Assembly (NCBI GenBank): GCA_937125225.1
Contig: CAKZLE010000031.1
Span: 1 to 64,000 of the forward strand
Direction: 5' to 3'
Length of the DNA: 64,000 nt
Source of the DNA: an uncultured Spirochaetia bacterium
Lineage (GTDB): Bacteria > Spirochaetota > Spirochaetia > CAKZLE01
Part shown: positions 14,110 to 57,793 of the stretch, one piece after another
How positions within the stretch are numbered: position 1 is the stretch's first letter
Layout: each line of letters starts with the position of its first letter
The notes under the pieces: generated by a model
Database searches by the model: none
What the model was told of the DNA's origin: nothing
What the model saw: only the letters and a program-made list of their open reading frames with translations
Position numbers and translations under genes: made by a program

Positions 14110-14131
14110 GATATTCTCTTTCCTGTTTATC

Positions 14132-15634: not shown

Positions 15635-15643
15635 CAACGCCTC

Positions 15644-16120: not shown

Positions 16121-16135
16121 ATACACTCCAAATGA

Positions 16136-16167: not shown

Positions 16168-16181
16168 CATATTCTCATCTA

Positions 16182-37308: not shown

Positions 37309-37317
37309 CTTCTCTTC

Positions 37318-39751: not shown

Positions 39752-39756
39752 ATTCT

Positions 39757-39972
39757 CTACCCCCATGATATTACTACTGGAATGGACTTCTCAGGAGCGA
39801 TCGTTATTGCATCGACTGGACAGTACATCCTACATAAGTGACAGATCTGGCAGTCAGCCGGATAGGCTATCACCGCCTTTCCTGTCTTCTCGTTAAGTCG
39901 TATCACGTCAGTGGGGCAGCTCTGAACACATGTCCCACAACCGATACAACCGCTTATACTATTGATTGACAT
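39757..39972 (-). CDS. 2[4Fe-4S] ferredoxin
   Basis: A 71-residue ferredoxin with two classic cluster motifs: CIGCGTCVQSCPTDVI and CQICHLCRMYCPVDAI (C-x2-C-x2-C-x3-C-P twice). Cytosolic, no signal. GGAAG lies before the ATG. It sits 11 bases after the LTxxQ-protein gene and just before the membrane protein, and would be the electron donor or entry subunit of the module. Confidence 0.93.
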   Translation of the reverse strand: MSINSISGCIGCGTCVQSCPTDVIRLNEKTGKAVIAYPADCQICHLCRMYCPVDAITIAPEKSIPVVISWG

Positions 39973-39983
39973 AGCTTACTTCC

Positions 39984-40505: not shown

Positions 40506-40574
40506 TGTTATCTCCATTCATATCTGGTTTTGATTTTCTATCTGATAAATCTAGACAATAAAAAGAGTTGTTAG

Positions 40575-40706: not shown

Positions 40707-42206
40707 TTAAAAACTGTCCTGCAGTAACCTGCTCAATTCCACTTCATGATTCCGTTCATATCCTGGAATATTCGGCAGACTCTTCTCCACATCCTGAAAG
40801 AGTAGGAGTTCATCAAGTTCCTGTGGAACCGAAGGTTTTGCGTACTCTTTAAAGCCATCGCAGTCGAAGGGTTCATTGTATCCTTCACTCTGATAGAAGG
40901 AGATTAGAGCATCTCTCATAGCTTTCGTATGTTTCGTATAGAAAGGATTCCCCGCCTTGTTATGGGTCTCTCCGGGATCTGTCTTCAGATCGAAGAGCCA
41001 CTCTTTCCTGTCCGGTACGGAGTATATATACTTGAACTCTTTCGATACAGCCATATAGAGGGCCTTATCGAAATGGTGATATTGACCGTAAATGATTTTT
41101 CTATCAATTTCATTTTCATAGATATCTTTCAAGCTCTCTCCACAGAAGTCCTGTTCATCCGTAATTTCTGCAAACTGCAGCATCGTGGGAAGAACATCCA
41201 TCAGTGATACCGGTTTTTCTGTAGAACAGCCCTTCGGTAGATCGGGATGAACCATGAGCATAGGGATTCGAGAAGCAGAATCGAGAAAGCATCGTTTCCC
41301 GACACAGTCATAATCTCCAAGCAACTCCCCATGGTCCGAGGAGAAAAGGATCAAGGTATTATCATAGAGCTTCTGTTCTTTGAGATATTCGAGGAGTCTG
41401 CCGATCTGGTAATCGATAAATGAGATTGTAGAATAGTAGGCTGCCTTCATCGTTCGAACTGCATGTTCTGATATACCCCGATCGAAATACTTGTATCGGT
41501 TCTGGAAGTCATTCCAATAGGTTGTCAGTTTCTCAGCTGTTATAGGATGTTTAGGAAGAGGCATCTCAGGCCCTCGATAGAGTTTATTCCAGGGTGTCGG
41601 AGTCTCGAATGGTGGATGAGGTTTTATGAAACTCGTCATAAGCATGAAGGGAGACTTCCTATCCCTTCTATCGAGAAAATCTATACTCTTATCAACGACC
41701 CAGGAGGAGTTATGAAGCTTTGCCGGTAGTTGTGAAGGTTGCGGGGTATAGTACATGTCACCACGAATCCCATGAGGATCATGGACATGACTATAGGAAT
41801 TCTCTTCTAGATAATGTGAATAGTCATCAGGTGATCCAAGTTCCTCACTGACATCTCTTGAGTCAAAGCCCCAGAGGATCGAGTTATCCTCCCCCTCGAA
41901 GGTGAAATGCATCTTCCCCACCCCGTGAGTCTGATACCCATGATCTGAAAGAATCTCCATGAAACTTCTGTTTCCTTCGGGCATGATGTCATTATATACA
42001 CAGTCGGTCTCATGAGGCATGAGTCCAGTGTGCATCGCATACCGTGCAGGGATACAGACTGGACAGGGAGAATAGGCTCTCTTAAAAGAGACTCCATTCC
42101 TTACCATTGAGTCTAGGGCTGGTGTCTTAATCACGGGATTCCCGTGAGCTGCAATCGTATCGAAACGTTGTTGATCTGTGAAGATCAATAAGATATTCTT
42201 CTGCAT
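40707..42206 (-). CDS. Formylglycine-dependent sulfatase, cytosolic, rhamnan locus (sulfatase A)
   Basis: A 499-residue family S1 sulfatase. QKNILLIFTDQQRFDT carries the metal Asp, the maturation motif is Cys51-Ile-Pro-Ala-Arg55, and GVGKMHF, FSSDHGELLGDYDCVGKRCF and FDLKTDPGETHN complete the fold. No signal peptide, so the substrate must be desulfated inside the cell. ATG 42206 is chosen (GGAGG 7 bases upstream) over an ATG two codons earlier. It overlaps the end of the GH78 rhamnosidase gene, so the two are coupled. Confidence 0.94.
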   Translation of the reverse strand: MQKNILLIFTDQQRFDTIAAHGNPVIKTPALDSMVRNGVSFKRAYSPCPVCIPARYAMHTGLMPHETDCVYNDIMPEGNRSFMEILSDHGYQTHGVGKMHFTFEGEDNSILWGFDSRDVSEELGSPDDYSHYLEENSYSHVHDPHGIRGDMYYTPQPSQLPAKLHNSSWVVDKSIDFLDRRDRKSPFMLMTSFIKPHPPFETPTPWNKLYRGPEMPLPKHPITAEKLTTYWNDFQNRYKYFDRGISEHAVRTMKAAYYSTISFIDYQIGRLLEYLKEQKLYDNTLILFSSDHGELLGDYDCVGKRCFLDSASRIPMLMVHPDLPKGCSTEKPVSLMDVLPTMLQFAEITDEQDFCGESLKDIYENEIDRKIIYGQYHHFDKALYMAVSKEFKYIYSVPDRKEWLFDLKTDPGETHNKAGNPFYTKHTKAMRDALISFYQSEGYNEPFDCDGFKEYAKPSVPQELDELLLFQDVEKSLPNIPGYERNHEVELSRLLQDSF

Positions 42207-42208
42207 TG

Positions 42209-44572
42209 TCATGCCTCCATAGCTATCTTCATCCGTATACAGTTCTTTTCAAATCGTTTGCCGTTTGGGAGCGTTATGATGAGTTCCAACTTATCAGGAT
42301 TTTTAATCGTCAAAATAGACTGTCCATTCTTTTCTCTCATATTCACATAGAGCGTACCCCCTCTAGTTACCACTGAACCTTGAATCTCCTTCACAGAAGT
42401 TCTTTGTGGTACAATAAGGATTCTGTCTGAAGTGATACTCTCAGGTCTCACACCTAGGAGTTCAGCGGTAAATTCATACAGGGGTATCGCTCCCCAGGCA
42501 TGACAATCACTTCTCTGAGTCACAGGGTCCTCGTTCCAGGTCGTGAGATTCATTTCAATCATCCTCTTCCACCCTCTCCATGGATCTTCATTCTCTCCAT
42601 AGATACCAGCTAAAGATAGAGACCGCATAAGAAAGAACGCCATTGAATAGGAAACTTGTGAAAGAGAATCGTCATGAATGGTCTTTCGCATCAGCTCTGC
42701 ACCACCCTTTCCTGTGATGGTTCCTGATAGGATTGCCCAGATCTGGGTATGCTGACTAAAATAGTGTGATCCTGGGCCGTCACTAAAAAGATTACGCTCA
42801 GTAGACCAACAGGTGCTCCTAATAATATCAAGCAATCTCTCCGACCGCTTTTCATACTCATGTGCCGTCCCAATACGTCCTAGAACTGTGCATAACTCTG
42901 CTGCCCTCTGGAGCCCCACAGCATAGAGTAGGTTTGTCACAGTCAGTGGACCATCAGAAGCAGCAGTCGGAACACCCCGACCAGCTCTCCATTGGTCTAC
43001 CCAGTCGACAAATTGCCAGTACTGGCTTGGTATATTATCCACCAGACCATCTTCATTGAGTTGTCTATCGAACCATCCAAGTACCGAATCGATCGTGGGG
43101 AGGTAACGCTTTACCAGATGCTCATCCCTGAAGTAGAGATAGTGATCAAAGACCATAAGGATCCAATAGATATTGAATCCTGGAATTATCTGAGATTCTA
43201 TCGAAGGGAATCTGCTCTGAAGCAGTCCTTGAGGTATCTGAGAGCAGTGATAGTCATGGATGGCCTTACGTGCCAGACGATCATCGCCTGAGATCTGATA
43301 GGTGAAGAGCATCTGCAAATAGGTATCCATAGTATATTGGAACTGTTCATAATAGGGACAATCCTCATAGCTCTCATGCATGCATCGCCTCAGGGTCCTG
43401 AGGCTGATATCCCACATGGAATTGAGATCGTTATCTGAGGAATTGAAATCTGCTTTGACTTCCAGCGGATAGCCGGTCTCCCGATAGGAGATATTACGGA
43501 ATAGGCAGGAATCATCTCCCACAGTGAGTGATACCCGTATGAACCTGAAGGTCTTGAACCAGAAAGGTTCATAGACTTCCGGATCTTCTTTGGTCCCTAC
43601 TCCTGCAAGTTCATATCGTGCTGAGTCTCCATAGAGAGAACCCTCTTCTGCATCATCTCGTATGCCCTTATCACGTTCCCAGGGAACTTCGATCGGTTCA
43701 TGCTCATAGCACTCTGCATAGAGGATCTCGACAATCGTCCCTTCTCCACCGGAGAATGTGAAGACCGGGAATCCAGTAGTCAATTCACCGGCATCTATCT
43801 CGATGGTCAATCGGGTCCCTGCCGGGATCAGGCAGCCGGGATCACATTCGGTATCGATTATCGCTTCTATCGAGGTTCCAGAGAGGATATCCCCTCGAGA
43901 TGCCACGATCTTCTTGAAAGTCTGTTCTCTTTCATAGAGAATCGGGATCTCACGTGGATAAAGCTGCCAGGGTTCGAGGACGCCGGTCGTAGTATCAACA
44001 AGATCATAGATACAACAGGATTCCCACTGAGAATCGTCATAGCCGAGCTCTTTCCAGCCGAACGGACGACAGGTACCGTCGACCTGTTCAGTACCACCGA
44101 GGAACATGGTATTGTACTCACCAGCCTTGAAGGAGATCGATTCATCCATCCGACAGAGCCAGGACTCATCACTGATGACAGTCCCAATAAGCTCATCCTG
44201 GTCATCATAGCAGGTTGCCTCGAAGATGAGCATACCATAGGGCGAACGGAATATTGAGAGATTCTCACCACTTATCGGGTAATGGAGAACCTTAACCGCA
44301 ATCTGATTGATCCCATCATTCAGGTATTCAGATATTTCAAGAGTCTCAAAGTACCAGCGGAAGTCTGATCCCTTACAGGGACCGAAGAGTACCATCTTAC
44401 CATTTACGTAGAGACGGTATCTGCTGTCTGCCGATATTCTCACGACACAACGTTCGAAACCTGTTTCGAAGAGAATCTGTTTCCTGAAATATAGGATCTC
44501 TGTCTCATCCGAGAATCTCTTCTCTTGATCCCTCCAGATGAAATTCCCTTCGAAAGGACGTTCTTTAACCAT
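42209..44572 (-). CDS. Alpha-L-rhamnosidase-like glycoside hydrolase (GH78), cytosolic
   Basis: A 787-residue protein of GH78 layout. An N-terminal beta-sandwich domain contains RISADSRYRLYVNGKMVLFG; then an (alpha/alpha)6 barrel holds YEDCPYYEQFQYTMDTYLQM, the GH78 catalytic-region signature (Asp/Glu cluster), and later DCHAWGAIPLYEFTAELLG. It would remove terminal alpha-L-rhamnose. No signal peptide is present, so it acts on imported oligosaccharides. Its ATG overlaps the end of the preceding permease gene by one base. Confidence 0.88.
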   Translation of the reverse strand: MVKERPFEGNFIWRDQEKRFSDETEILYFRKQILFETGFERCVVRISADSRYRLYVNGKMVLFGPCKGSDFRWYFETLEISEYLNDGINQIAVKVLHYPISGENLSIFRSPYGMLIFEATCYDDQDELIGTVISDESWLCRMDESISFKAGEYNTMFLGGTEQVDGTCRPFGWKELGYDDSQWESCCIYDLVDTTTGVLEPWQLYPREIPILYEREQTFKKIVASRGDILSGTSIEAIIDTECDPGCLIPAGTRLTIEIDAGELTTGFPVFTFSGGEGTIVEILYAECYEHEPIEVPWERDKGIRDDAEEGSLYGDSARYELAGVGTKEDPEVYEPFWFKTFRFIRVSLTVGDDSCLFRNISYRETGYPLEVKADFNSSDNDLNSMWDISLRTLRRCMHESYEDCPYYEQFQYTMDTYLQMLFTYQISGDDRLARKAIHDYHCSQIPQGLLQSRFPSIESQIIPGFNIYWILMVFDHYLYFRDEHLVKRYLPTIDSVLGWFDRQLNEDGLVDNIPSQYWQFVDWVDQWRAGRGVPTAASDGPLTVTNLLYAVGLQRAAELCTVLGRIGTAHEYEKRSERLLDIIRSTCWSTERNLFSDGPGSHYFSQHTQIWAILSGTITGKGGAELMRKTIHDDSLSQVSYSMAFFLMRSLSLAGIYGENEDPWRGWKRMIEMNLTTWNEDPVTQRSDCHAWGAIPLYEFTAELLGVRPESITSDRILIVPQRTSVKEIQGSVVTRGGTLYVNMREKNGQSILTIKNPDKLELIITLPNGKRFEKNCIRMKIAMEA

Positions 44573-45402
44573 CAGAACTTCAAAGCTCCTGAGGTCAGGT
44601 TCGTGATCATCTTCTTCTGTGCGATGATGAAGAATATCAGGATGGGGATGAGGGTAAGCAGCAATCCTGCAAAGAACTCATTCCAGTAGGTCACGAATTC
44701 ACCTTTTGCGAAGATGATCGCAAGAGGTATAGTCCTCTTCGCTACTCCCTGTAGGATGATAAGTGGGAATAGGAGGTTATTCCAGGTATCAACGGTATTG
44801 AGCGTCACGAGGGTGACGATCGCTGGATTGAGGATCGGAATAGCAATCTTCCAGTAGACCATGAATGGACTCGCACCATCAATGATCGCAGACTCTTCGA
44901 GCTCTATCGGTACAGTCTTCATGAATTGTGAGATCAAGAAGATCCCATAGGATGCGAAAGCCCCGACGAATACCAGTACGAGTCCGAATCTGGTATTGTT
45001 TATACCCATTGAGGTCAACCAGGGTACTATAGTCGTTACGACAGACTGAGGAGGCAGGGTCATTCCGACTACGAACAGGACGAGAATGCTAGAGAAGACC
45101 CATCTATGTTGTTTTGCTCTACAGATTGCATATCCTGCCATGGTATAAGAAATGATACCTATAAGAACAGCAATAGTTGTGACAAATATACTATTGTAGG
45201 TTGCGACAACATAGTCCATTCTCTCAAAGGCCAATTTGAAGTTCTCAAGATGAATCGAAGTCGTTATTCCAAGGGGGTTACTGATCATCTCGTTCGTAGT
45301 CTTCAATGAGATGTTCACTAGATTGAATAATGGGTAGATCATGATCACAGTAAAGATGATCATAAGGATCTCTATTCCCAGGGTTTTTCTCTTTGCTGCC
45401 AT
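44572..45402 (-). CDS. CUT1 sugar ABC transporter permease (MalG type), system 1
   Basis: A 276-residue permease with six helices; the EAA loop is VPIELEESAIIDGASPFMVY. The end LTSGALKF is a common MalG-type C-terminus. Start 45402 is one base into the stop of the partner permease; an ATG six codons upstream is possible. No ATPase gene is in the operon. Confidence 0.92.
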   Translation of the reverse strand: MAAKRKTLGIEILMIIFTVIMIYPLFNLVNISLKTTNEMISNPLGITTSIHLENFKLAFERMDYVVATYNSIFVTTIAVLIGIISYTMAGYAICRAKQHRWVFSSILVLFVVGMTLPPQSVVTTIVPWLTSMGINNTRFGLVLVFVGAFASYGIFLISQFMKTVPIELEESAIIDGASPFMVYWKIAIPILNPAIVTLVTLNTVDTWNNLLFPLIILQGVAKRTIPLAIIFAKGEFVTYWNEFFAGLLLTLIPILIFFIIAQKKMITNLTSGALKF

Positions 45403-46310
45403 CAGACTCTCTTCTCCCATTGACCGAACCCGAATACGAGCGATCTGTTAACGATAAGAATGCAGATTACCAGAAGTACTGAACCTGCAGCCGCATACCC
45501 GTTATAGCCCTGTCTCACGAGTTTGATGATGTAGGTACCAAGAGTCTCTGTTACTCCTGCGGGACCTCCATCGGTCATACCATAGATGATATCAAACACT
45601 TTCAAAGAACCCATGAACGAAGTGATCACATTAACTGAGAATGACGGTGCCATCATAGGAAGGATGATATGTGTCAGTCTCCTCCACCAACCGGCACCAT
45701 CTATCATAGCAGCCTCTTTCATACTTGATGGAATAGTTGCCAGATTTGCAGTGAATAGCAGGGATGCCCGCCCTATAAAACGCCAAACATGAGCAATGAT
45801 AACCGCATACATGGCAGTATTCACCTGTCCTAGCCAAGGTTGGACAAGCTGGTCCAACCCAACACTCTCCAGGAGGGTATTAAAAAAACCACCCATCGAA
45901 TACATATAGGTCCAGAGATACGCTACGACTACACCAGGGATCAATGAGGGGAGAAACAGTAGTGCTGTATAAAGAGCACCGTACTTCAGCTTCTCATGTA
46001 GCAACATCGCAACAAGAAATCCGAGGATATTCTGTATCAGGATCACAAGGATCGAGAATACGAATGTATTGATCAGACTCTGGATGAACTGTGGATCTGT
46101 GATCATCATCCGGTAATTTCTCAAACCTACGAACTTGTAGTTCATATTGATCCCGTTGAAATTCGTGAAGGAATACCCGAAACTCCCGATAACCGGTAAG
46201 AGAAAGAAGATTACATAGATGACCAGAGCTGGCAACAACATGAGCAAAAAGACGTAGAAACCATCATATGTAGTCTTGATCTTGCGTTTAGGTATGGATT
46301 CTATTTCCAT
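45402..46310 (-). CDS. CUT1 sugar ABC transporter permease (MalF type), system 1
   Basis: A 302-residue permease with six helices; YVIFFLLPVIGSFGYSFTNF near the N-terminus and the EAA loop IPSSMKEAAMIDGAGWWRRL. Start 46310 follows AGGAG by ten bases; the longer frame to 46352 runs into the intergenic hairpin and is rejected. Confidence 0.92.
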   Translation of the reverse strand: MEIESIPKRKIKTTYDGFYVFLLMLLPALVIYVIFFLLPVIGSFGYSFTNFNGINMNYKFVGLRNYRMMITDPQFIQSLINTFVFSILVILIQNILGFLVAMLLHEKLKYGALYTALLFLPSLIPGVVVAYLWTYMYSMGGFFNTLLESVGLDQLVQPWLGQVNTAMYAVIIAHVWRFIGRASLLFTANLATIPSSMKEAAMIDGAGWWRRLTHIILPMMAPSFSVNVITSFMGSLKVFDIIYGMTDGGPAGVTETLGTYIIKLVRQGYNGYAAAGSVLLVICILIVNRSLVFGFGQWEKRV

Positions 46311-46336
46311 GGTGATTATACTCCTAATAGATACGA

Positions 46337-46364
46337 ATCGGCTGAAAATCACTCTTCAGCCGAT
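46337..46364 (-). other. Intergenic hairpin after binding-protein gene, ABC system 1
   Basis: ATCGGCTGAA / TTCAGCCGAT, 10-base perfect arms with an 8-base loop, between the binding-protein stop (46385) and the permease start (46310). No U tract follows. Confidence 0.78.
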
Positions 46365-46384
46365 CATGTATTCATTGACTCTGA

Positions 46385-47647
46385 TTACTGGTTGAGAAGT
46401 AGTTTCCGCTTGTAGTACTCTCCAAACTCAACAGCCATCTCTTGTGGAGTTGTAACCCCGATGATGAGCTTGCTCAGGTTATCTCTCCAGTCATTGAGAC
46501 AGACATTCCTGAACTGAGGCCATAGGAAAACGTTCCCGTCAGCGATCGTCTGAGCGAATTCGCTTCCGATAGGATTATCTGAACTGATACCCCCCTGAAG
46601 CGTGGTATAGGTTCCCCATGAGAGTGCGAGTCTTCCGAGATTCTCTTTCTCAAAGAGGAACTCAACGAACTTGATAGCCTCTTCTTTGTGCTCTGATGCA
46701 TCATTGACTCCGATGAATCGGTCAACAAGCATATGAGCCTGTGGAGGAAGTGGGGCATCCTGGATAGGGGATGCAACGAATACGAACTCAAATCCTTCTG
46801 GTGCTGCATCTGAAAGTAACTGGATATGGGATGCGATACCGTACATGAAAGCACCTTCACTATTGACGAACTGGGTGAATCCCTCATCGTTCCAGGTAAT
46901 CGAAGCTGATTCTTCGGGGTTGATATATCCACGATCGATGAGCGTCTGGATCTTCTCCATCTGTGGAAGCCAGATCTCAGAGATTGATACTTCGTCATTC
47001 ATGACTCGTTTCTCAAGATCACTGGTTGGAAGATTCTCTGCGAACATGTTATTCTCGAAAGAATGGTAGGCAGACCATGTCCTTGATTTATTACCCATGA
47101 TCCAGGGAAGGTAGCCGTGGTTTTTTACCTTCTCAGAAGCCGCGAGGAACTCATCCCAGTTCAGGGGGATCGAATCCACTCCGCACTCTTCAAGAATCTT
47201 AGTATTAACGAACATTCCCAGACCGTTTCCTGCAGAACTCAGTGCATAGACATTCCCATCCACGGTTCCTGAATCAAGTACTGCAGGGAGCATATTTTGA
47301 GCTGCTACAGTATCATCAAGAACTGCAAGTCGACCTGCATCTGCAAAGTCCTTCAAATCTGCAGTCATGACGAAGAATGCATCGAGCTGTTGTCCAGCAA
47401 CAAGACGTGTCTTATAGACATCAGTGTATCGGTCGACACCGATACCTTCTACAGCTACCGTGATACCGGGGTTCTTAGCCTCGAACTCTTCAATAAGTTC
47501 AGGTAAAGCCCCGACCTCTTTATCTAACATGTAATGAAGGAACACCAGTTCCGTCTTCTTATTCTCATCTGCTTCTGCCTGCCCTCCAGCAAACAGTGGA
47601 GTCATTGCCAACAGTACTGCCAGTACCATAACGATTACTCTTTTCAT
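46385..47647 (-). CDS. CUT1 sugar ABC transporter substrate-binding protein, system 1
   Basis: A 420-residue exported binding protein; signal MKRVIVMVLAVLLAMTPLFA then GGQAEADENK. The SBP-1 fold appears from LVFLHYMLDKEVGALPELIE onward, with YALSSAGNGLGMFVNTKILE and SEGAFMYGIASHIQLL typical of oligosaccharide binders. The linked GH78 and sulfatase genes suggest a sulfated rhamno-oligosaccharide ligand. It lies immediately downstream of a NarL-type two-component pair on the same strand. Confidence 0.92.
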   Translation of the reverse strand: MKRVIVMVLAVLLAMTPLFAGGQAEADENKKTELVFLHYMLDKEVGALPELIEEFEAKNPGITVAVEGIGVDRYTDVYKTRLVAGQQLDAFFVMTADLKDFADAGRLAVLDDTVAAQNMLPAVLDSGTVDGNVYALSSAGNGLGMFVNTKILEECGVDSIPLNWDEFLAASEKVKNHGYLPWIMGNKSRTWSAYHSFENNMFAENLPTSDLEKRVMNDEVSISEIWLPQMEKIQTLIDRGYINPEESASITWNDEGFTQFVNSEGAFMYGIASHIQLLSDAAPEGFEFVFVASPIQDAPLPPQAHMLVDRFIGVNDASEHKEEAIKFVEFLFEKENLGRLALSWGTYTTLQGGISSDNPIGSEFAQTIADGNVFLWPQFRNVCLNDWRDNLSKLIIGVTTPQEMAVEFGEYYKRKLLLNQ

Positions 47648-47686
47648 AATTTTCCTCTTTTTAATGTATTCCCGTAGGTGATTTCG

Positions 47687-47706
47687 AGTATAGGGGATAG
47701 AATCCC
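47687..47706 (-). promoter_or_regulatory. Possible activator-dependent promoter of ABC system 1
   Basis: On the minus strand a -10-like TATACT (47687-47692) has no good -35 at 17 bases. Directly upstream is a 13-base palindrome, GGGAT-AGA-ATCCC (47694-47706), where an activator would sit. The adjacent NarL-type response regulator is the obvious candidate. Confidence 0.4.
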
Positions 47707-47730
47707 ATCCGTGGGCTTATCAAAGTACTC

Positions 47731-47756
47731 CTGAAGAGTACTTTAGTACTCTTCAG
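47731..47756 (-). terminator. Hairpin at the end of the response-regulator gene
   Basis: CTGAAGAGTAC / GTACTCTTCAG, 11-base arms and a 4-base loop, includes the stop codon of the NarL-type regulator. It has no U tract, so it may only attenuate or protect the transcript. Confidence 0.5.
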
Positions 47757-48412
47757 ATAAGATTCTGATGAGAACTGTACTCAGGAAAGACTTCGAGGAT
47801 CGTTCGGATTGCCTGGAAACGATTATTGACCTTCATTTCACCATAGATCCTACTTATATAATTCTTAACCGTCTGTTTCCCAAGATTCATCTCTTTAGCT
47901 ATCTCATCATTCGAGTATCCTTGGGATATGAGCCTGAGGATATGGATATCACGCTGACTGAGATGATCCACCCATTTAGGGCGTTTCTTCGACCTTTTTG
48001 AACCACCCCCCTTCGAAGTGATCTTGGAGATGATGAAGTTATCCTTTGAAGCATTCGTGATGGCCCTAGTGAGCTCATCCATACTCACATCTTTGAGGAG
48101 GATCCCTGATGCACCGATATTCATCGCCTTCTGTACATAATCATCGTATCCGAAGGCGGTCAACATCAGGATGATGATATCAGGGTACAGTTTGAGAATC
48201 TTCTCGGAGATAGTAAAACCATCTAGATGCTTGAGATGGATATCCATAAGAATGACCCCAGGTCTGAACTCTCCTACCATCTTCATGATTTCAGGTTCTG
48301 AGGCTGAAGTCTCATAGGCAACACGTGTGAACTCCTCGAAAACCAGAGCCCGCTTTAAGGTCTCTGCAAAAAGCTGCTGATCATCAACAATCAATACTCT
48401 ATGTCTATTCAT
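47753..48412 (-). CDS. NarL/FixJ-family response regulator
   Basis: A 219-residue response regulator: receiver with Asp10-Asp11 and phosphorylation site Asp57 (VILMDIHL), and a LuxR-type helix-turn-helix (LSQRDIHILRLISQGYSNDE then IAKEMNLGKQTVKNYI). Overlaps its kinase gene by 8 bases. Placed just upstream of ABC system 1, probably activating it in response to a carbohydrate or envelope signal. Confidence 0.94.
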   Translation of the reverse strand: MNRHRVLIVDDQQLFAETLKRALVFEEFTRVAYETSASEPEIMKMVGEFRPGVILMDIHLKHLDGFTISEKILKLYPDIIILMLTAFGYDDYVQKAMNIGASGILLKDVSMDELTRAITNASKDNFIISKITSKGGGSKRSKKRPKWVDHLSQRDIHILRLISQGYSNDEIAKEMNLGKQTVKNYISRIYGEMKVNNRFQAIRTILEVFPEYSSHQNLI

Positions 48413-49661
48413 GCTTTGCCTCCTGATTCAAAGGGATCTCTACCCTTACCTGATATCCCTGCTGGTTCCTCTGGAATCGAATATATCCATCTACTTTGGC
48501 AAGTCGCTCCTCCATACTCGTCTGTCCAAGCCCTTTATGGCCGCTCTTAAGAGTCTTCATCCCATTATCCTGGATTGTCACCGTAATCAGATCCTCTGAT
48601 TCCCAGAAACTTATCTGTATAGCCTTTGCCTTTCCATGCCGTAATGCATTGACCAGTGATTCCTGTATGATATAGTAGATCACTTTATCGATGAGAAGAC
48701 CGTAACTGTTTCGAGCATTGGCCCAGACGATATTCACCTCGACATGAGTCGAACTGCTAAACGGACCGGCAAGATCACTGATCGAGGAGAGTCTGATAGG
48801 TTCTTCCTTGATAGATGATCGCAGGTCATAGAGAACCTTCCTGATCTCATAGAGTCCATACCGACTCTGCTCCCCAACCCACTTGAAGATCTCGCGGAGT
48901 TCATCAGGATCATCAGGAGGGTTTCGGTCATTCGCCTCCATCATCATGATGATATCGGTGAACGTCTTCCCAATGATATCATGGAGCTCACGAGTGATTC
49001 GTTTCCTCTCATCAATGCTTGAAGACTCTTCAGCATCTGCCGCATATTTAAGAAAGTGTGAGCTCTCAGCAGTAAGCTGTTCAATTGTATTCACGAGGGT
49101 TTCAAACACGTTCTGTGTCTCCAGATGTTGTGATACCCCATAACGGGCAAGATAATGGAGAACCGAGAAGGACCCATAAAAACAGATGAACATGAGGATA
49201 TCAGCATACCCAAGCAGTATTCCAAAATGATGATAAGCAGGGATGATCTTCACAGTCAGATAGAGTATCCCGTATATGAGGGTGATCACCGGAGTATAGG
49301 ATACTTTGAATATAGAGATCAGGCTCAGATATAATCCGGTGACGAGAAAACTGTCAATGAAAACACTATCGGGATAGGGTACGATTGTAAGGGTGATCAC
49401 TACGGCTCGGAAGAGGATGATCCAGACCAGATATTTCTTTGTGGTGAACACCCTCTCAAGAAGGATGAGCAGGGTGTTGATCCCAATGAGGATCTTGAAA
49501 TCAAGATCCCAATCATATTGATGAGTGAAGGTAGTGATCCTTGAATATAGAAGGGCCAAAACAATGAAACAGAAAAAGATATTGATTAGGAGTGTCGCAT
49601 ACTGCAATATATGATAGATCGGTTGAGAGGAGAATCTCACCCTACCATTGTCTCCATTCAT
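48405..49661 (-). CDS. Sensor histidine kinase (HisKA_3 / NarX-DegS type), membrane-bound
   Basis: A 418-residue kinase with about six N-terminal membrane helices (residues 15-180), a coiled linker, the HisKA_3 motif ERKRITRELHDIIGK (phospho-accepting His) and a C-terminal ATPase domain with IIQESLVNALRHGKA (N box) and GHKGLGQTSMEERL. The sensor part is a set of helices without a large periplasmic domain, suggesting detection within the membrane or of an interacting transporter. Partner of the regulator at 47753-48412. Confidence 0.93.
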   Translation of the reverse strand: MNGDNGRVRFSSQPIYHILQYATLLINIFFCFIVLALLYSRITTFTHQYDWDLDFKILIGINTLLILLERVFTTKKYLVWIILFRAVVITLTIVPYPDSVFIDSFLVTGLYLSLISIFKVSYTPVITLIYGILYLTVKIIPAYHHFGILLGYADILMFICFYGSFSVLHYLARYGVSQHLETQNVFETLVNTIEQLTAESSHFLKYAADAEESSSIDERKRITRELHDIIGKTFTDIIMMMEANDRNPPDDPDELREIFKWVGEQSRYGLYEIRKVLYDLRSSIKEEPIRLSSISDLAGPFSSSTHVEVNIVWANARNSYGLLIDKVIYYIIQESLVNALRHGKAKAIQISFWESEDLITVTIQDNGMKTLKSGHKGLGQTSMEERLAKVDGYIRFQRNQQGYQVRVEIPLNQEAKHE

Positions 49662-49796
49662 CTATATATCCTCACTATTTCTCTCTTAAAGCTCTTCACC
49701 TACATTATAGCATTGTTAAAATTATAAGATCGGATCCTTCACAAAGGAATATGCAAAACCACACAGATGATGGACATAACCTGTTATTTCAAACTT

Positions 49797-51143
49797 TCAA
49801 AATGGGATCGCTCCTTTATCATCTACTTGATAATCCCATCTGCTCAGCAGTTCCGCTGAAGATAGGAACCCATCACCCAGTTCTCCTAATTCCTGATCCA
49901 GACGTTCATCTAGTCGTTTCAATAAAGTACTAGCTTCAGGCACGTCGATAAGATTGTTCAATTGGAAAGGATCTTCCCTGTTATCAAAGAGTAGCCAAGG
50001 ACCTTTCAGTTCCCTCACATAGGTATACCTTTGGGTCCTGATCCCTCGATACTCTCGTCCTCCTCGCTCGAAACACCAGTCGGCAAATGGAGAGTAACCG
50101 GCAAGCAGGACCGCATCACGACCAATATTCTCTTCTTGCTTGATAAGACGACTATAATCGATCCCTTCCACGGTGTCAGGGACCTCTTTACCACATATCC
50201 CTAGAAGAGTCGGCATAAGGTCAGGTGAAGCAATCAAAGCATCTTCCATTCGTGGTTCTAGTCCAGGTCCTTCGATCAGAAACGGGACGAGGATCGACTC
50301 CTCATAGGGTCGTTGTTTATTGATCCAGGGAGTATCAGGATCGCATTGTGATTCTATAGAATCCCCATGATCAGAGGTGAAGATAAGATAGGTATCCTCT
50401 TTGAGATCTTCTGCCCTTAATACCTCTTCCACTCTGGCAACACAATCATCCAAGGCACTGATATGGGCATAATAGCCATGGAGCTCATCCCTGCAGTTCG
50501 TATCAAGACCTGGATCAACATTATCCCTCAGGATAAAGGATTCCTTGTCGTAGAGATCAAGATACTCTTTGGGGGCGGTATCATAGGGATTATGGGGAGT
50601 TCCTAAAGAGAGGAAGAGGATGAAGGGTCTATTAATATCCTTACGACCTCTGAGCCAATCAAGCGCATCTGCTGTTTGGGCGAAAGCATCATAGCCCTCC
50701 CATCGCCTTCTCTCATCAGAGTCATTCGCATAATAATCTGACTCCCAATAGTCATGGGTACATTCGAGTACTTTCCAATAATCGAAGCCTTGATGACGCT
50801 CTGGCGGTATGAATTGATCTCTACCATGACCGTCGAGGTGCCATTTACCAACATAGGCTGTATCATAGCCATCTCTTTTAAGCACCTGAGCAATAGAGTT
50901 CCCGTTATCAGGAAGGCAGAGATCATTCATAAAAAGCCCATGAGTCAGGGGATACTGTCCTGTCAACAGACAGGCCCGGTATGGGGTACAGATCGGGCAG
51001 ACTGATATCATGTTGGTCATATTCACACTACGTTCTGCCATACCGTCAAGAAAGGGGGTCTTCACATTAGGGTCTCCGGCATAACCAGTTGCATGACCAC
51101 GCATCTGGTCTGTGAGGATAAACACGATATTCGGTCTACTCAT
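49797..51143 (-). CDS. Formylglycine-dependent sulfatase, cytosolic (sulfatase B)
   Basis: A 448-residue family S1 sulfatase: RPNIVFILTDQMRGHATG, maturation motif Cys52-Thr-Pro-Tyr-Arg56, VGKWHLDGHGRD, FTSDHGDSIESQ and the C-terminal FDNREDPFQLNNLID. No signal peptide. Its start overlaps the end of sulfatase C by 8 bases and it ends the operon driven from ABC system 2. Confidence 0.94.
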   Translation of the reverse strand: MSRPNIVFILTDQMRGHATGYAGDPNVKTPFLDGMAERSVNMTNMISVCPICTPYRACLLTGQYPLTHGLFMNDLCLPDNGNSIAQVLKRDGYDTAYVGKWHLDGHGRDQFIPPERHQGFDYWKVLECTHDYWESDYYANDSDERRRWEGYDAFAQTADALDWLRGRKDINRPFILFLSLGTPHNPYDTAPKEYLDLYDKESFILRDNVDPGLDTNCRDELHGYYAHISALDDCVARVEEVLRAEDLKEDTYLIFTSDHGDSIESQCDPDTPWINKQRPYEESILVPFLIEGPGLEPRMEDALIASPDLMPTLLGICGKEVPDTVEGIDYSRLIKQEENIGRDAVLLAGYSPFADWCFERGGREYRGIRTQRYTYVRELKGPWLLFDNREDPFQLNNLIDVPEASTLLKRLDERLDQELGELGDGFLSSAELLSRWDYQVDDKGAIPF

Positions 51144-52569
51144 CAGGGGACCCCTTTTGGTAATATACCGGTAAACTGCTCATATGGTTCAGAAGATCCT
51201 TCGTCATTTGGTTTCTTATATCGTCAAAGTTCTCATTGGAGAAGAGATCTTTCCATTCACGGGGATCTTTACTCAGATCATAGAATTCTCCACCGATGAT
51301 ATCATCTGCACGATACTCAGAAATTGTTGCCTTCCGTTCGAAGAAGATAATCAGCTTATAGTCCTTGTCCCTCCACATGAAGGAGGCCTCTCCTTTTCGT
51401 TCATGTAAAGCAGAGAAGGATCCGCTTCTCTGCCATGATGTATCCAGAAGGTCTGCACCCACGTTCTTCTTGGGGACCTTGATCCCTGAGAAGGTGAGGA
51501 GAGTGGTATACATATCGGTAAGTTCGGTATTCCTCTCGTCCACAGTTCCTTTGAACTGTTCAGGGAGCGCGCTCCCTGAGAGGATCATGGGAACTCTGAC
51601 ACTTGATTCATAGAGACAGTACTTGTTGAATCGGTAATAACGTTCTCCGAGCATCTCACCATGGTCTGAAAGATAGACGATCAGGGAATTCTCCAAAAGA
51701 CCTTTCTCTTTGAGTAGCTCCATCACCCTACCGAACATCGAATCGATCCAAGTACAGTTCGCTTTATACCGCAGAGTCATCTTCTTCCATTGATCACTGG
51801 AGGCCTCGCTCCAGAATGGGATATACATATCATTCCGATTGTTCCCTTCAGCATGAGGTGATACATCAATACCCCACGGAGGCTGTTCAGGAATCTCAAT
51901 ATCATCCTCATCATAGAGCTCTTCAAAGCCGGTCGGTACATTATGGCCTGCATGGGGTTTGAGATATGAGAGGTAGAGAAACAGTGGTCTCTCATCATCC
52001 CTTCTCTCAAGATAATCAAGACATTGTCTTGTCACCCATCCATCACGATGACAGATCTCATCGATCCCGCTCGTTCGTCCGAGATACCCGTTGTTGTTCT
52101 CTTCACCGGCACCATAATCAGCCGTCTCCTCACTGTAGAGTCGCTTCAGTTCAGGATCCTTATCAGCCATCATAACAGCACCGATCTCTGGACATTCCCC
52201 GATATAACGGGTCTCGAACCCCCTGGTTCCACATTCGATCTCCCAATGGGTCTTCCCGAATCCTGCAGTCTCATATCCGGCAGTACGATAGTGCTCTACG
52301 AGCGGGAGATTTGGAAGTCTGTCATCAGGGATACCCTCCTCGTTCCGCAGGACATCGATCTGATTAGGATAGAGCCCAAGCATCATCGAATTCCTGCTCG
52401 CGATACACATCGGGGCCTGACAGACCGTCTGGGAGAAGTGAACTCCTTCCTGCGATAGTCGATCAAGAGTAGGTGTTTTGGTCACCCCGTCGATGCAACT
52501 GAAGGCATCATGACGATGCTGATCGTCCATCAGGAATATGATATTGGGCTTTTCCGTATTGTTTTTCAT
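51136..52569 (-). CDS. Sulfatase with variant maturation motif C-x-A-S-R (sulfatase C)
   Basis: A 477-residue family S1 sulfatase: EKPNIIFLMDDQHRHDAFS, GFGKTHWEIE and YLSDHGEMLGERYYRFNKYC. The maturation site is Cys55-Ile-Ala-Ser-Arg59, so Pro is replaced by Ala; C/S-x-A-x-R sites are known to be handled by anaerobic radical-SAM maturases (anSME), less well by FGE. No signal peptide. It lies between the GH106-like enzyme and sulfatase B. Confidence 0.93.
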   Translation of the reverse strand: MKNNTEKPNIIFLMDDQHRHDAFSCIDGVTKTPTLDRLSQEGVHFSQTVCQAPMCIASRNSMMLGLYPNQIDVLRNEEGIPDDRLPNLPLVEHYRTAGYETAGFGKTHWEIECGTRGFETRYIGECPEIGAVMMADKDPELKRLYSEETADYGAGEENNNGYLGRTSGIDEICHRDGWVTRQCLDYLERRDDERPLFLYLSYLKPHAGHNVPTGFEELYDEDDIEIPEQPPWGIDVSPHAEGNNRNDMYIPFWSEASSDQWKKMTLRYKANCTWIDSMFGRVMELLKEKGLLENSLIVYLSDHGEMLGERYYRFNKYCLYESSVRVPMILSGSALPEQFKGTVDERNTELTDMYTTLLTFSGIKVPKKNVGADLLDTSWQRSGSFSALHERKGEASFMWRDKDYKLIIFFERKATISEYRADDIIGGEFYDLSKDPREWKDLFSNENFDDIRNQMTKDLLNHMSSLPVYYQKGSPDE

Positions 52570-52586
52570 AGGTATGTATCCTTACA

Positions 52587-54710
52587 CTATTTAGAGAATA
52601 TGATCACTGATCCAACAGCTCCTACCGTAAAGAGGGCTTCAGTCTGGGTATGCCCAATGATCCTCTGCTTAGGTAATGTGATATCACCGGTCTGTGGATC
52701 CCAAAGTTCTACCTCTTTGCATCCCCGAAGAGAGACCACACAATCATTTGAACAAGATGCTGTATTTACGATGAGATAGACATCTTTGCCGTCAATCCTC
52801 TTATGGGTATAGGTAAGCCCCTCGTTCTCTGTTCTGCTGAACTCAAGGTCTGGGATGTCGATCCCTGAAGAGATTGCCTCTGCAAATGCTGTGAGCTCTC
52901 CATCCTCGATAAAATAGGCTTTACCCATCTGCCCACCATGCTTATTTAAGAAGATCGAATCGATGATAGCCCTCACCTCTTCATCTCCATAGAACTCAGC
53001 AGCATGTCGAGGGAGCATTCTCGATGCGATGATCGTTCCTCCGCTCTCATAGAAAGACTGAAGCAGTCTGAGATTCGAGAGGGATATAGTACTCATTCCC
53101 GGTATGATAATCACTTTGAAAGTCCCAGAGAACTTTCCATTATCGAACTCAAGATGTCCATTCTCTGCACTACAGCATTCATCAAGGATCTCCGGATGGA
53201 GAAACTGAAAATCTTTTTTAAGATCGGTGAATACCATCTCTCCGATGTCCTGATAATCATCGTATTCTGTGACAGGTCCACCCTTATAGGCTTCATAACT
53301 ATCGAATCGATAGGTCGATTGCAGACTATGAATCGGGTAGAGTATCCCGATATCTGCCACATGATACCCCTGTTGCATGACTGAACTGAGCCGGGCAGCC
53401 AATATGTTGAGTTCTTTCAGGCTATTCCCGAACTTGTTACTTCGATAGGAGAGTTCAGGGGGGAAGAGGATATTCTCAGGATCATCATCAAGCCACATGG
53501 CATGAGGGTTGAAATAATTCACCCCCTTCACGAACTGTTCAAGGATCTCTGAACGCATCTGATCGATTGTGAGAGTCTCTCCCATAGCTCCGAAGGTCTC
53601 ACTCATCACAATGGATTTTCCCCAGTTGTAGGCACTTGAGCTGACGATCTTATAGACCTTTCTCGCCCTTCTTGGGAAGAATATCTCATCAACACCGGGC
53701 ATAGCCTGGTATTTGAAGGATTTCATGAGATCCCCGGTGATTCCCACTGGATTGATGACCTCCTCTTGCTCCACATGTCCGGTAAGTCTCACATCATGGG
53801 CTTCACACCAATCATTGCATACTTTTGGGAACCCGTTCGCATAGAGGTCTGCACGAAAACCGAGTAGAGCATTCCTCGCTGCAGCCGTCTCTGCTCCTAT
53901 ATCATGCCACAGAGCAGGATAGAGCAACACCGGTGAGTAACCGAAATTATCTTCAAAACGTCTATTGAAACTATCTGTCCAGGCCCTACCCTTAGGTCGA
54001 TAGAGACCAGGTTCATCATAGAAGACGCTGTCGATGACTTGAGGGAAGTATTCTGCGAATCTCTTATAGTATCTATCGTGAGTCAACTCAATGAACTTCC
54101 CAACCGCTTCAGGATCGAGATAATCCACAAGATCATCCCCATCGAGTAGGCAGATGAAGACCATGATCTTCCACTCCCCCTCTGGGACCTCCCATTGGAG
54201 GTATCCATCCTGGATACAGGCTGAGATATCACGTCTCTCGAGAGTCTGATTGTTCATGGCTACCACACTCATGAGCGTACCCGCAGGGGTATCATCAGCC
54301 TGATATATATTCACCGGTTGTCGGTATAAGATTGGTCCGAGAACATCGGTCTCTATCTTATCGAGACGTTTGGCACAGTGCTGGGGATAGATCTTCTGCA
54401 TCTGTCCACCGACTGAACCACTGGGGAATTCCCATTCATCATAGAGACAGACTCCCATTCCGAGAGCTTTCGCCTCTTTGAGGACAACCTCATAGATATC
54501 GAAATACTCTTCACTCATGTACTCGAGAGAACATCTCCCGAACGGGATGATATGAAATCCACCATAGCCAGATTGGTCACGACTCTCTCTCATGATCGTC
54601 TTTACCAATTCCTCATCTGGGGTATCATTCCACATCCATAGAGGTCTTGGTCGTATTGATACTGGTGGGTTCTTAAAAGCATCTCTGAGTCTTGAATTCT
54701 TCATATGCAT
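52587..54710 (-). CDS. GH106-like glycoside hydrolase (probable alpha-L-rhamnosidase), cytosolic
   Basis: A 707-residue protein whose N-terminal region (RPRPLWMWNDTPDEELVKTI, GGFHIIPFGR, CLYDEWEFPSGSVGGQMQKI) matches the TIM-barrel part of GH106-type enzymes, and which has acidic candidates in SVFYDEPGLYRP and TGHVEQEEVINP. It is shorter than the roughly 1000-residue exported GH106 enzymes and lacks a signal peptide and the usual extra C-terminal domains. AGGAAAAC precedes the ATG. Neighbouring sulfatases and ABC importer imply intracellular cleavage of imported rhamnose-containing oligosaccharides. Another family with a similar barrel is possible. Confidence 0.72.
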   Translation of the reverse strand: MHMKNSRLRDAFKNPPVSIRPRPLWMWNDTPDEELVKTIMRESRDQSGYGGFHIIPFGRCSLEYMSEEYFDIYEVVLKEAKALGMGVCLYDEWEFPSGSVGGQMQKIYPQHCAKRLDKIETDVLGPILYRQPVNIYQADDTPAGTLMSVVAMNNQTLERRDISACIQDGYLQWEVPEGEWKIMVFICLLDGDDLVDYLDPEAVGKFIELTHDRYYKRFAEYFPQVIDSVFYDEPGLYRPKGRAWTDSFNRRFEDNFGYSPVLLYPALWHDIGAETAAARNALLGFRADLYANGFPKVCNDWCEAHDVRLTGHVEQEEVINPVGITGDLMKSFKYQAMPGVDEIFFPRRARKVYKIVSSSAYNWGKSIVMSETFGAMGETLTIDQMRSEILEQFVKGVNYFNPHAMWLDDDPENILFPPELSYRSNKFGNSLKELNILAARLSSVMQQGYHVADIGILYPIHSLQSTYRFDSYEAYKGGPVTEYDDYQDIGEMVFTDLKKDFQFLHPEILDECCSAENGHLEFDNGKFSGTFKVIIIPGMSTISLSNLRLLQSFYESGGTIIASRMLPRHAAEFYGDEEVRAIIDSIFLNKHGGQMGKAYFIEDGELTAFAEAISSGIDIPDLEFSRTENEGLTYTHKRIDGKDVYLIVNTASCSNDCVVSLRGCKEVELWDPQTGDITLPKQRIIGHTQTEALFTVGAVGSVIIFSK

Positions 54711-54716
54711 GTTTTC

Positions 54717-55559
54717 CTATCCTTTGACACTACCACTAGTCAGACCTTTCACAAAATATTTCTGCAAGAAGATGAATGAGAGGAAGAGCGGAATAACGAC
54801 CATACAGACTGCAGCGGTCAATCTTGGCCAATCAGTACCATACTGATCCTGAAAGTTGATAAGTCCCACGGTGAGAGGAATACCTTTACTAGTCAGTAAA
54901 GTGGTGATCCTTGCCCACATCAACTCACCCCATACAAAGATGAAGTTGAATACCATGACTGTAGCCATTGCACTCTTCATGAGAGGAAGTACGATCCTCA
55001 CCATGGTGGAGACCTCCCCTGAACCATCGATCCTTGCCGCTTCGATCAGTTCTGCCGGGATCGTCTCGAAGAAGTTCTTGAGGATGATGATCGATCCAGG
55101 TAGGGACCATCCAATATAACCAAGCATAGTCGCAATGAAAGGGATTCTCATGATCCCTGCCTTAGACAAGGTGATATATAACGGGATGATGATCGATTCC
55201 TTTGGGAGAATATTGATCAGAAAGAGTCCTAATATGAAATAATTACTTCCAGGTATCTTCAGTCTTGATAATGCATAGGCAGCAGAAAGAGCTAGGAACT
55301 GTATCGAAGCGAGGGTTACCACAGCGATAAAGAAACTATTAAGGAAGTATTCACCGATCTGTCCGGTAACGAATGCCTCAATATAGTTAGTGAACAACAG
55401 GTGTTCAGGAAGTGCCCAGATACTGGTATAGAACTCGTTCAGAGTCTTGAACGATGTATTTAATGCAAAGATCACCGGAAAGACGAACACACTAGCTAAA
55501 AAGATCAATACGATCCTTACCGGGATATTCCCTAGGTTGAGACTTCTCTTAGTATTCAT
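54717..55559 (-). CDS. CUT1 sugar ABC transporter permease (MalG type), system 2
   Basis: A 280-residue permease with six helices; EAA loop IPAELIEAARIDGSGEVSTM, C-terminal KYFVKGLTSGSVKG. Start 55559 follows AGAGGTGAT; a GTG three codons upstream is less likely. Overlaps the partner permease by 11 bases. Confidence 0.93.
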   Translation of the reverse strand: MNTKRSLNLGNIPVRIVLIFLASVFVFPVIFALNTSFKTLNEFYTSIWALPEHLLFTNYIEAFVTGQIGEYFLNSFFIAVVTLASIQFLALSAAYALSRLKIPGSNYFILGLFLINILPKESIIIPLYITLSKAGIMRIPFIATMLGYIGWSLPGSIIILKNFFETIPAELIEAARIDGSGEVSTMVRIVLPLMKSAMATVMVFNFIFVWGELMWARITTLLTSKGIPLTVGLINFQDQYGTDWPRLTAAVCMVVIPLFLSFIFLQKYFVKGLTSGSVKG

Positions 55560-56454
55560 AGGTATCACCTCTCAGTACAAATCTGGTGATTATCACAAGT
55601 GATCCCACGATAAGGGTCAAGATAACACCCATAGCGGCCGCGTAACCAAACTTATTGAAGGTGAATCCCACAGTTATCATACGTAGTGGAACGGTCGTTG
55701 AGTAGTCTCCGGGACCTCCCTTAGTCATAGATAATACGATATCATAGGTTGCAAAGGCCCAGATGAACGCTAGGGAGAGTACGAGTTTGATCTTCGCCTT
55801 CATCAGTGGCAGGATGATATACCGGATATCCTGCAGAAAGTGTGCTCCTTCGAGCTTGGAAGTTTCGAAGAAGGATTGGGGGATTCCTAGCATCGCTGTA
55901 TAAAAGAGCATCATAGAGGTGCCGCTGAACTTCCATCCTGCGACTCCTGCGATACTTTTTAATACGGTATCAGTCCCTCCAAGCCAACCCCGAGTCTGTG
56001 AAGAGAGTCCAATGAAATTGAGGATATTATTGAGAAGTCCCTCCTGCTCTGCAAAGACAAAGACGAAGAGAAGACCTATAACAGTCATGGGCATCATACT
56101 CGGGCAGAAGAAGATGAATCTGAAGAAAGCACTCTCTCGTTTTCCCAGTCGGTAGATGAGAAGAGCAAGAAGCATTCCGAGAACGATACAGATTATGATG
56201 GAGATAACACCGATATAACAGGAATTCAGGATCGCTGATTTCGCTGCACGGTCGGTGAATATCTTCGCATAGTTCTTCATACCGACGAATTTGGCAGAAG
56301 AATTCACATTCCATTTATGGAATGAAAGATAGATATTCCAGAACACCGGGAAGATCGTGGTGATTGTCATGATCAGAAATGCCGGTAGAAGGAACATGAA
56401 ACTCACTAAGACCAATCGTTTGGAATAGGTCTGTTTTTTTATAGGTTTCCCCAT
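55549..56454 (-). CDS. CUT1 sugar ABC transporter permease (MalF type), system 2
   Basis: A 301-residue permease with six helices: MFLLPAFLIMTITTIFPVFW in the first and the EAA loop around FFETSKLEGAHFLQDIRY. Start 56454 has AAGGAAAT upstream; the longer frame runs into the hairpin. Confidence 0.92.
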   Translation of the reverse strand: MGKPIKKQTYSKRLVLVSFMFLLPAFLIMTITTIFPVFWNIYLSFHKWNVNSSAKFVGMKNYAKIFTDRAAKSAILNSCYIGVISIIICIVLGMLLALLIYRLGKRESAFFRFIFFCPSMMPMTVIGLLFVFVFAEQEGLLNNILNFIGLSSQTRGWLGGTDTVLKSIAGVAGWKFSGTSMMLFYTAMLGIPQSFFETSKLEGAHFLQDIRYIILPLMKAKIKLVLSLAFIWAFATYDIVLSMTKGGPGDYSTTVPLRMITVGFTFNKFGYAAAMGVILTLIVGSLVIITRFVLRGDTYEY

Positions 56455-56485
56455 GATGATTTCCTTGTTTATCTTAAGAATAAAA

Positions 56486-56531
56486 AGGTAATTCTCAAGC
56501 CTCACAAAATGTTGTGAGGCTGGAATTACCT
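56486..56531 (-). other. Long two-step hairpin after binding-protein gene, ABC system 2
   Basis: Inner arms GCCTCACAA / TTGTGAGGC (9 bases, 4-base loop) and outer arms AGGTAATTC / GAATTACCT (9 bases) separated by small internal loops form an 18-base-pair stem. It lies between the binding-protein stop and the permease start, with no U tract. Confidence 0.82.
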
Positions 56532-56551
56532 CTATTGATCAGTGATCAGGA

Positions 56552-57793
56552 CTATTCGATCTCTAATCTCAGAGCTTCGAGGTCCTCGAGCGCCTGGTCT
56601 CCATAGAGGAGGTAGTTGGCAGGACACTGTCCGTTGATATAGTCGAAGAGTTCCGCAGAGGTGTTGATGATCTCTTTTCCAAAGACCTTGAAACTGTCCT
56701 TTCCATACATCATATAGTTAGGGTCAGTAGATACGGCTTCTTTGAAAGGTGCGATAAGACCGGCATCGACCATGAGCTGTATTGACTCTTTGCTGGTGAT
56801 GTACTTAAGCATATCGACAGCGAGATCAGGTTGTTTGGTGTTTGAAGGTATGAACCATCCTGCAGCTCCACCTAGTACATAGTCCATGTTCTCGTTCATT
56901 GCAGGCCAGCTTACTACAGCTACTTCAAAAGAATCTCCGATAGCGTTGGCATCACCCTGAGCTAGAGAGTTGACAGTTGCCAGTAAGGCCGCTTTCCCCT
57001 GTACGAAGGCTGCTAGAGTCTGGTCTCTAGTCGCTACGAGAGCACTCTCACCAGGGTAGAGGTAGTTGTTGTCATAGAGACCTTTGACATTCTCGAACAT
57101 CGCTTTGACTCTTGGGTCGAGAAAACTCACATCTCCTGCGATAAAGCTTCTCAGTTCATCTTCATCATCCCAGATCTGGAGCAGACCATTTCGTACTAAC
57201 CAGGTACCCCATTGCATGTTCACAGAGAGAGGGAATGCATCAGTGTTTGCATCAAGCTGAGCTAAGACAGCTTCAAACTCATCCCAGGTATAGTGCTCTT
57301 TCACTTCAAGACCTGCTTCAGCAAAGATTGATTTGTTCGCTAGGAACATAGGATATACAGAGTCAGAAGGAACACCATAGATCTTATCGTTATAAGTTCC
57401 GATATCGAGAGCTCCATCGAGCCATCGGTTCTTCCATGCAGGATCTGCATCCAGATAAGGGGTAAGGTCAAGGACCATATCAGCTTCTACGAAGGTTCCG
57501 ATCTGGTTTGGCCAGTAGACAGTCAAATCGATCGCTTCACCACCGGCGAAAGCAGTCTTGATGATCTGTGCTGCATCAGGACCATTGAACTGTTTTCTTG
57601 CGAAATCAACATCTGGAAATGCGGCAACTAGTCGTTCAGTCACTGGAGTCATTACCGGAATATTCACGATCTCAGTCATGATCGTCATCTCGATCTTCTC
57701 ATCACTTGTATCGGTTGTTTCCTGAGCTCCCCCGGCAAAAGCCATTGTAGCAGTCACGAGGAGTGCCAGAATTACCATAAAACGTCTTTTCAT
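56552..57793 (-). CDS. CUT1 sugar ABC transporter substrate-binding protein, system 2
   Basis: A 413-residue exported binding protein; signal MKRRFMVILALLVTATMAFA then GGAQETTDTSDE. SBP-1 features are DLTVYWPNQIGTFVEADMVL, GKAALLATVNSLAQGDANAI and the late VLGGAAGWFIPSNTKQPDLA. First gene of the operon with two permeases, the GH106-like enzyme and two sulfatases; ligand probably a sulfated oligosaccharide. Confidence 0.92.
   Translation of the reverse strand: MKRRFMVILALLVTATMAFAGGAQETTDTSDEKIEMTIMTEIVNIPVMTPVTERLVAAFPDVDFARKQFNGPDAAQIIKTAFAGGEAIDLTVYWPNQIGTFVEADMVLDLTPYLDADPAWKNRWLDGALDIGTYNDKIYGVPSDSVYPMFLANKSIFAEAGLEVKEHYTWDEFEAVLAQLDANTDAFPLSVNMQWGTWLVRNGLLQIWDDEDELRSFIAGDVSFLDPRVKAMFENVKGLYDNNYLYPGESALVATRDQTLAAFVQGKAALLATVNSLAQGDANAIGDSFEVAVVSWPAMNENMDYVLGGAAGWFIPSNTKQPDLAVDMLKYITSKESIQLMVDAGLIAPFKEAVSTDPNYMMYGKDSFKVFGKEIINTSAELFDYINGQCPANYLLYGDQALEDLEALRLEIE

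Follow-up and report, generated by a model that had tools for sequence, protein, structure and literature searches.

Few kinds of organic carbon are degraded as slowly as sulfated polysaccharides. In Gram-negative bacteria, the route to their use that has been studied best is desulfation at the cell surface or in the periplasm. A locus at 40707-57793 of a 64,000-nucleotide stretch of DNA from an uncultured Spirochaetia bacterium (contig CAKZLE010000031.1, hereafter the window) places sulfatases and rhamnosidases beside ABC importers, and so raises the question of where in a diderm cell the sulfate is removed, and from what kind of substrate. Our reading, to which we assign a probability of roughly 0.6, is that two adjacent catabolic units allow this anaerobic-type spirochaete to use sulfated oligosaccharides that carry terminal α-L-rhamnose. 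If so, a diderm would import intact sulfated oligosaccharides and desulfate them in the cytosol via an anaerobic maturase, a selfish and scavenging strategy for anoxic water or sediment. The open-access papers that we searched contained nothing direct on sulfatase/ABC systems of spirochaetes.

Gene content and organization

Thirteen open reading frames, all on the minus strand, occupy the region and fall into two units separated by a gap of 135 bases, with neighbouring genes in both units mostly overlapping or only a few bases apart. Unit A (57793-49797) begins with the CUT1 solute-binding protein SBP2 (56552-57793; PF13416/PF01547), followed by a MalF-type permease (55549-56505; 44% to its counterpart in the Lachnospiraceae locus L107), a MalG-type permease (54717-55568; 55% to the gene of that locus), a GH106-like α-L-rhamnosidase of 707 aa (52587-54710; PF17132, 106.1 bits) and the S1 sulfatases S1c (51136-52569; PF00884, 142.5 bits) and S1b (49797-51143; 183.7 bits). 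Unit B (49661-40707) is headed by a HisKA_3 sensor kinase with N-terminal membrane segments (48405-49661; PF07730, PF02518) and a response regulator with NCBIfam MadR/NarL among its best matches (47753-48412), and continues with the solute-binding protein SBP1 (46385-47647; PF01547/PF13416), MalF-type (45402-46352) and MalG-type (44572-45420) permeases, a GH78-like α-L-rhamnosidase (42209-44572; PF17389, 87.3 bits) and, last, the sulfatase S1a (40707-42212; PF00884, 173.7 bits).

Pfam matches above cut-off comprise three Sulfatase domains, Bac_rhamnosid6H and Bac_rhamnosid_N in the GH78 protein, Glyco_hydro_106, two SBP_bac domains and HisKA_3/HATPase_c. The binding protein and permease set of a CUT1 importer is thus present twice, with no ATPase gene for either importer within the locus. 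These matches bear out the inventory of a preliminary description (two CUT1 importers, GH78 and GH106-like enzymes, three S1 sulfatases and a NarL-type two-component pair), which had nevertheless merged two separate units into a single locus, of which only unit B is conserved in the family. Under random gene order, the chance that at least two of three rhamnosidases would adjoin a sulfatase is P ~0.0005. Promoter and terminator scans of the locus performed no better than shuffles. A hairpin of 13 pairs (window 46365-46336) lies between SBP1 and the MalF-type permease of unit B and possibly lowers downstream expression.

Integrity of the enzymes

The GH78 assignment follows from an (alpha/alpha)6 Bac_rhamnosid domain (PF17389) over cut-off together with the catalytic acidic residues: D404, E409, D416 and E681 are invariant in the alignment with GH78 relatives, and in kind and spacing they match what we take to be the catalytic acidic residues of BsRhaB, the GH78 enzyme of Bacillus sp. 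GL1 (PDB 2okx), which is also the best PDB match of the protein (158 bits, identity ~30%). To our knowledge BsRhaB has not been linked to sulfatases. The GH106-like protein aligns with positions 222-736 of the 743 in PF17132 and retains D91/E92, D232/E233, H312, E316 and E371, all invariant among GH106 relatives, while the C-terminal ~300 residues of typical members are missing; its predicted structure (pLDDT 42) was too poor for a fold comparison with solved GH106 enzymes.

S1a, S1b and S1c classify as S1 (formylglycine) sulfatases by PF00884 scores over cut-off, by a C-x-P/A-x-R motif (CIPAR at C53, CTPYR at C52 and CIASR at C55, respectively) and by the residues that bind metal and sulfate (D, K, H, D, H, K), which all three keep. 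In S1a, K100, H102, H199, D293, H294 and K306 are invariant in the sulfatase alignment, and its predicted model (pLDDT 70) matches solved sulfatases.

Cellular location and maturation of the sulfatases

Export was assessed with a simple hydropathy measure, the maximum over any 11-residue stretch within the first 40 residues. By this measure both binding proteins of the locus carry an N-terminal export signal (3.47 for SBP1 and 2.90 for SBP2; ten binding-protein controls ranged from 2.7 to 3.6) and the three sulfatases and two rhamnosidases carry none (-0.04 to 0.90). The gene junctions are tight, with overlaps or gaps of -4, -1, -8, 17 and 6 bases, and thus leave little space for a hidden N-terminal extension of the enzymes. 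No match to SusD was detected in the genome. The preliminary proposal that the sulfatases and hydrolases lack signal peptides, and that uptake proceeds by ABC import without SusCD, agrees with these results and with the doubled SBP/MalF/MalG set; the scheme of cytosolic sulfatases, cytosolic rhamnosidases and ABC import holds up, insofar as the location of enzymes that appear cytosolic can be judged from their N-termini.

The same measure returned no signal peptide in any of the 18 sulfatases found in the genome, including one (L020) that is cut by a contig end and has a complete N-terminus. Most of the 18 adjoin genes for CUT1 or TTT-type importers, as annotated by reading. It may tentatively be suggested that the whole sulfatase repertoire of this spirochaete family has moved to the cytosol, that the imported unit is the sulfated oligosaccharide and not the desulfated sugar, that many importers (CUT1, TTT) each have a sulfatase of their own, and that the subset bearing rhamnosidases opens sulfated rhamnose glycans to the cell without an outer-membrane SusCD; we regard this broader picture as possible, though short of probable. 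The pairing of sulfatase and importer recurs many times in the genome (L010, L013-L020), and within the window a fourth signal-less sulfatase, at 12706-17108, stands beside TctA/TctB/TctC-like (TTT) transporter genes.

A candidate activating enzyme is an anaerobic sulfatase maturase matching TIGR03942 at 447.9 bits (cut-off 349.45; L009 13309-14553). FGE was considered in the same role. The main FGE-domain match (L175 4023-7937, on G000:C4) is 1304 aa long, combines three FGE-like domains with Big_2 repeats and has a hydrophobic N-terminus; it is probably exported, and is for this reason an unlikely maturase of cytosolic sulfatases; a further FGE-domain match, on contig C35, is weak.

Catabolism of L-rhamnose

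Rhamnose catabolism, on which the preliminary description had made its interpretation depend, appears to be encoded in the genome. The L-rhamnose isomerase RhaA scores over cut-off, and it lies in a run of genes (ADH, RhaB-like kinase, AraC, RhaA, class II aldolase; L005) that keeps the same order in the family relative (L174); a putative rhaB-rhaA-aldolase operon is present in both family genomes. The RhaB-like kinase reaches 475 bits against a cut-off of 528, and the aldolase falls below its curated cut-off, its matches being confined to the class II aldolase portions of enzymes with two functions. RhaA also turned up in each of the four further genomes examined for it (the family relative and three Bacillota), among them Clostridium sp. 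DSM 17811, which has no sulfatase, and its presence alone is consequently weak evidence. On the contig of the rha operon, two GH31 proteins and a sulfatase (L006 112-6518 and 9326-14543) are found, with a CUT2 sugar importer and a RhaM-like mutarotase within a few kb of them.

Conservation and history of the two units

The order to which the organism belongs is represented in our set by two genomes, the present one and the Lake Tobar MAG 'Spirochaetia bacterium isolate Tobar13m-G40'; the relative G001 and the genome of locus L055 (G394) were treated as one genome, as their sulfatase places coincide. The Lake Tobar MAG, which is the one further member of the order in the set, has every gene of unit B in unchanged order, with identities between the present genome and L055 of 50% for the sensor kinase, 65% for the response regulator, 75% for the binding protein, 78% for MalF, 75% for MalG, 55% for GH78 and 62% (60-62%) for S1a. 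The GH78 tree joins the protein and its L055 counterpart as sisters (98/97) inside a group of Bacillota sequences, their next neighbour being Clostridium sp. DSM 17811, a placement consistent with an old transfer of the unit B GH78 gene from Bacillota.

The history of unit A is of another kind. It was not found in G001, a genome 93% complete, and no conserved context for it appeared in any genome sampled. Among ~393 genomes of the phylum, matches to the GH106-like protein were confined to distant GH106 members of ~1000 aa (24-29% identity), and S1c had no close homologue; a scan of genome contigs with the GH106-like protein gave no match, nor did a viral scan. The relative carries a second cluster (L172, G001:C10:1-17000) in the order sulfatase-GH78-GH78-sulfatase, with the start of a further sulfatase, a binding protein and a permease-like ORF. 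Given that unit B is kept, that the relative has this second cluster and that unit A is missing from it, the combination of sulfatase and rhamnosidase is therefore a recurring theme in this spirochaete family, and units A and B differ in history.

The nature of the substrate

Among solved structures, S1a and S1c come nearest to the S1_46 sulfatase BT1918 and to arylsulfatase/PMH-like enzymes, and S1b to yidJ and S1_27-like endo-4-O-sulfatases. As BT1918 acts on 3S-GlcNAc (PMC10154620), one may envisage that rhamnosidases and sulfatases do serve one glycan in which the sulfate sits on other sugars (amino sugars, galactose or uronic acid, in a mucin-, GAG- or EPS-like polymer), rhamnose being only a neutral terminal sugar. 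Identities to these solved relatives are only ~25-35%, below the level that carries specificity, so that no subfamily or specificity can be assigned to the three sulfatases and the choice of nearest structure is not decisive; moreover, neither unit A nor unit B holds a hexosaminidase, a fucosidase or a uronyl hydrolase. We consider such a glycan unlikely, though worth keeping in mind.

The preliminary description had pointed to the sulfated rhamnose of ulvan and other algal rhamnans; in its most specific form, this proposal would have the rhamnose 3-sulfated. Rhamnosidases and sulfatases do occur here together with rhamnose catabolism, and the ulvan rhamnose-3-sulfatase P36_S1_25 (6HR5) and xylose-2-sulfatase P18_S1_7 (6HHM) (PMC9096561) are among the solved relatives of the sulfatases, although they are not the best of them. 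S1_25 stands behind other solved sulfatases for S1a, S1b and S1c alike and is the nearest relative of none. The locus contains no unsaturated uronyl hydrolase of GH88/105, and the sole gene of that type in the genome lies far away, in a glycosyltransferase region; no exported rhamnosidase was found and, among families other than those of the ulvan lyases (PL24/25/28/40), no lyase. Nor is this type of GH78 tied to sulfated substrates, since a sulfatase lies within 10 kb in only 5 of the loci of its 80 nearest relatives, one of the five being the spirochaete MAG; the closest of these relatives belong to Bacillota, and most of them have no sulfatase alongside. Furthermore, the named family relative derives from the sample Tobar13m, and freshwater or saline-lake glycans would fit equally well. 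Calcium spirulan, a cyanobacterial sulfated rhamnan, is an example of such a lake glycan. An ulvan or algal rhamnan is thus not supported as the substrate, and we hold it to be improbable.

A scavenging role for the sulfatase-like enzymes, as relatives of arylsulfatases or of phosphonate/phosphodiester hydrolases that are unrelated to the rhamnosidases and clustered with them for regulation only, is very improbable: the S1a model does match the Mn-dependent arylsulfatase EfAS first and then several phosphonate monoester hydrolases, and EfAS is promiscuous (PMC12421950), but the gene order with GH78 is stable in two genera and the relative holds a second, independent sulfatase-GH78 cluster.

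We accordingly accept an imported sulfated, rhamnose-containing oligosaccharide as the probable substrate class.

A proposed route and its known counterparts

The sequence documents which genes are present and how they are arranged, that export signals are missing, that a maturase and a rhamnose pathway are encoded, and that unit B is conserved. The reading of two catabolic units for rhamnose-terminated sulfated oligosaccharides would connect these findings as follows. Depolymerisation would be the work of other organisms, or of some exported enzyme of the spirochaete. The exported binding proteins would capture the oligosaccharides in the periplasm, and the two CUT1 permease pairs, energized by an ATPase encoded elsewhere, would import them, presumably still sulfated. 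In the cytosol, the radical-SAM maturase would activate the S1 sulfatases and sulfate, which may be located on or next to rhamnose, would be removed; the GH78 and GH106-type rhamnosidases would release L-rhamnose, in an order relative to desulfation that we can only infer, and the RhaA/RhaB/aldolase pathway would consume it. Unit B is probably turned on by the two-component pair encoded at its head, the sensor kinase with the NarL-type regulator.

Clusters of sulfatases with GH78 and GH106 and without SusCD are already known from Verrucomicrobiota, where they are associated with sulfated methyl-pentoses and with microcompartments and the transporter was left open (PMC8857213). The present locus resembles them in joining GH78/GH106 to sulfatases, in the absence of a detected SusD and in the rhamnose metabolism of the same cells, and differs in phylum and in the pairing of CUT1 ABC importers with signal-less sulfatases. 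Signal-less sulfatases beside GH78 also occur in a few Bacillota loci, two of which have ABC permeases as well. The Bacillota loci L107, L092 and L089 share a GH78 of the same clade and ABC permeases with the locus described here, and L107 and L092 have signal-less sulfatases nearby; sulfatases are nevertheless few among such loci (the 5 of 80 noted above, spirochaete MAG included), the gene order is another and the hosts are monoderm.

The ulvan PUL H of Formosa agariphila, a system of Bacteroidota, combines S1_25, S1_7 and S1_8 sulfatases with GH78 (PMC9096561), a likeness that is limited by the different, as yet unassigned branches on which the sulfatases of the spirochaete fall and by the lack of a SusD and of a nearby uronyl hydrolase; more generally, and in contrast to Bacteroidota PUL, the SusD half of a SusC/SusD pair has no match in this genome. 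The anaerobe Pontiella agarivorans has a large set of S1 sulfatases that serve it in the use of algal polysaccharides, and 96% of its sulfatases carry signal peptides (PMC10880615), whereas the count here is 0 of 18. What is unusual in the spirochaete is thus the diderm host, a sulfatase set that appears fully cytosolic and the pairing of importers with sulfatases.

Other features of the window

At 36284-40517, TatA- and TatC-like genes lie beside the gene of a flavoprotein that resembles FAD/fumarate reductases and has a twin-arginine signal and an insert rich in Pro and Gly; a ferric reductase-like membrane protein and a small protein that is exported complete the group. The Tat genes may form an export unit dedicated to a single redox protein. 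The edge of the window (63047-64000, with its continuation in L007 47-1660) encodes a protein whose C-terminal domain is that of L-arabinose isomerase (PF11762), divergently from an AraC regulator.
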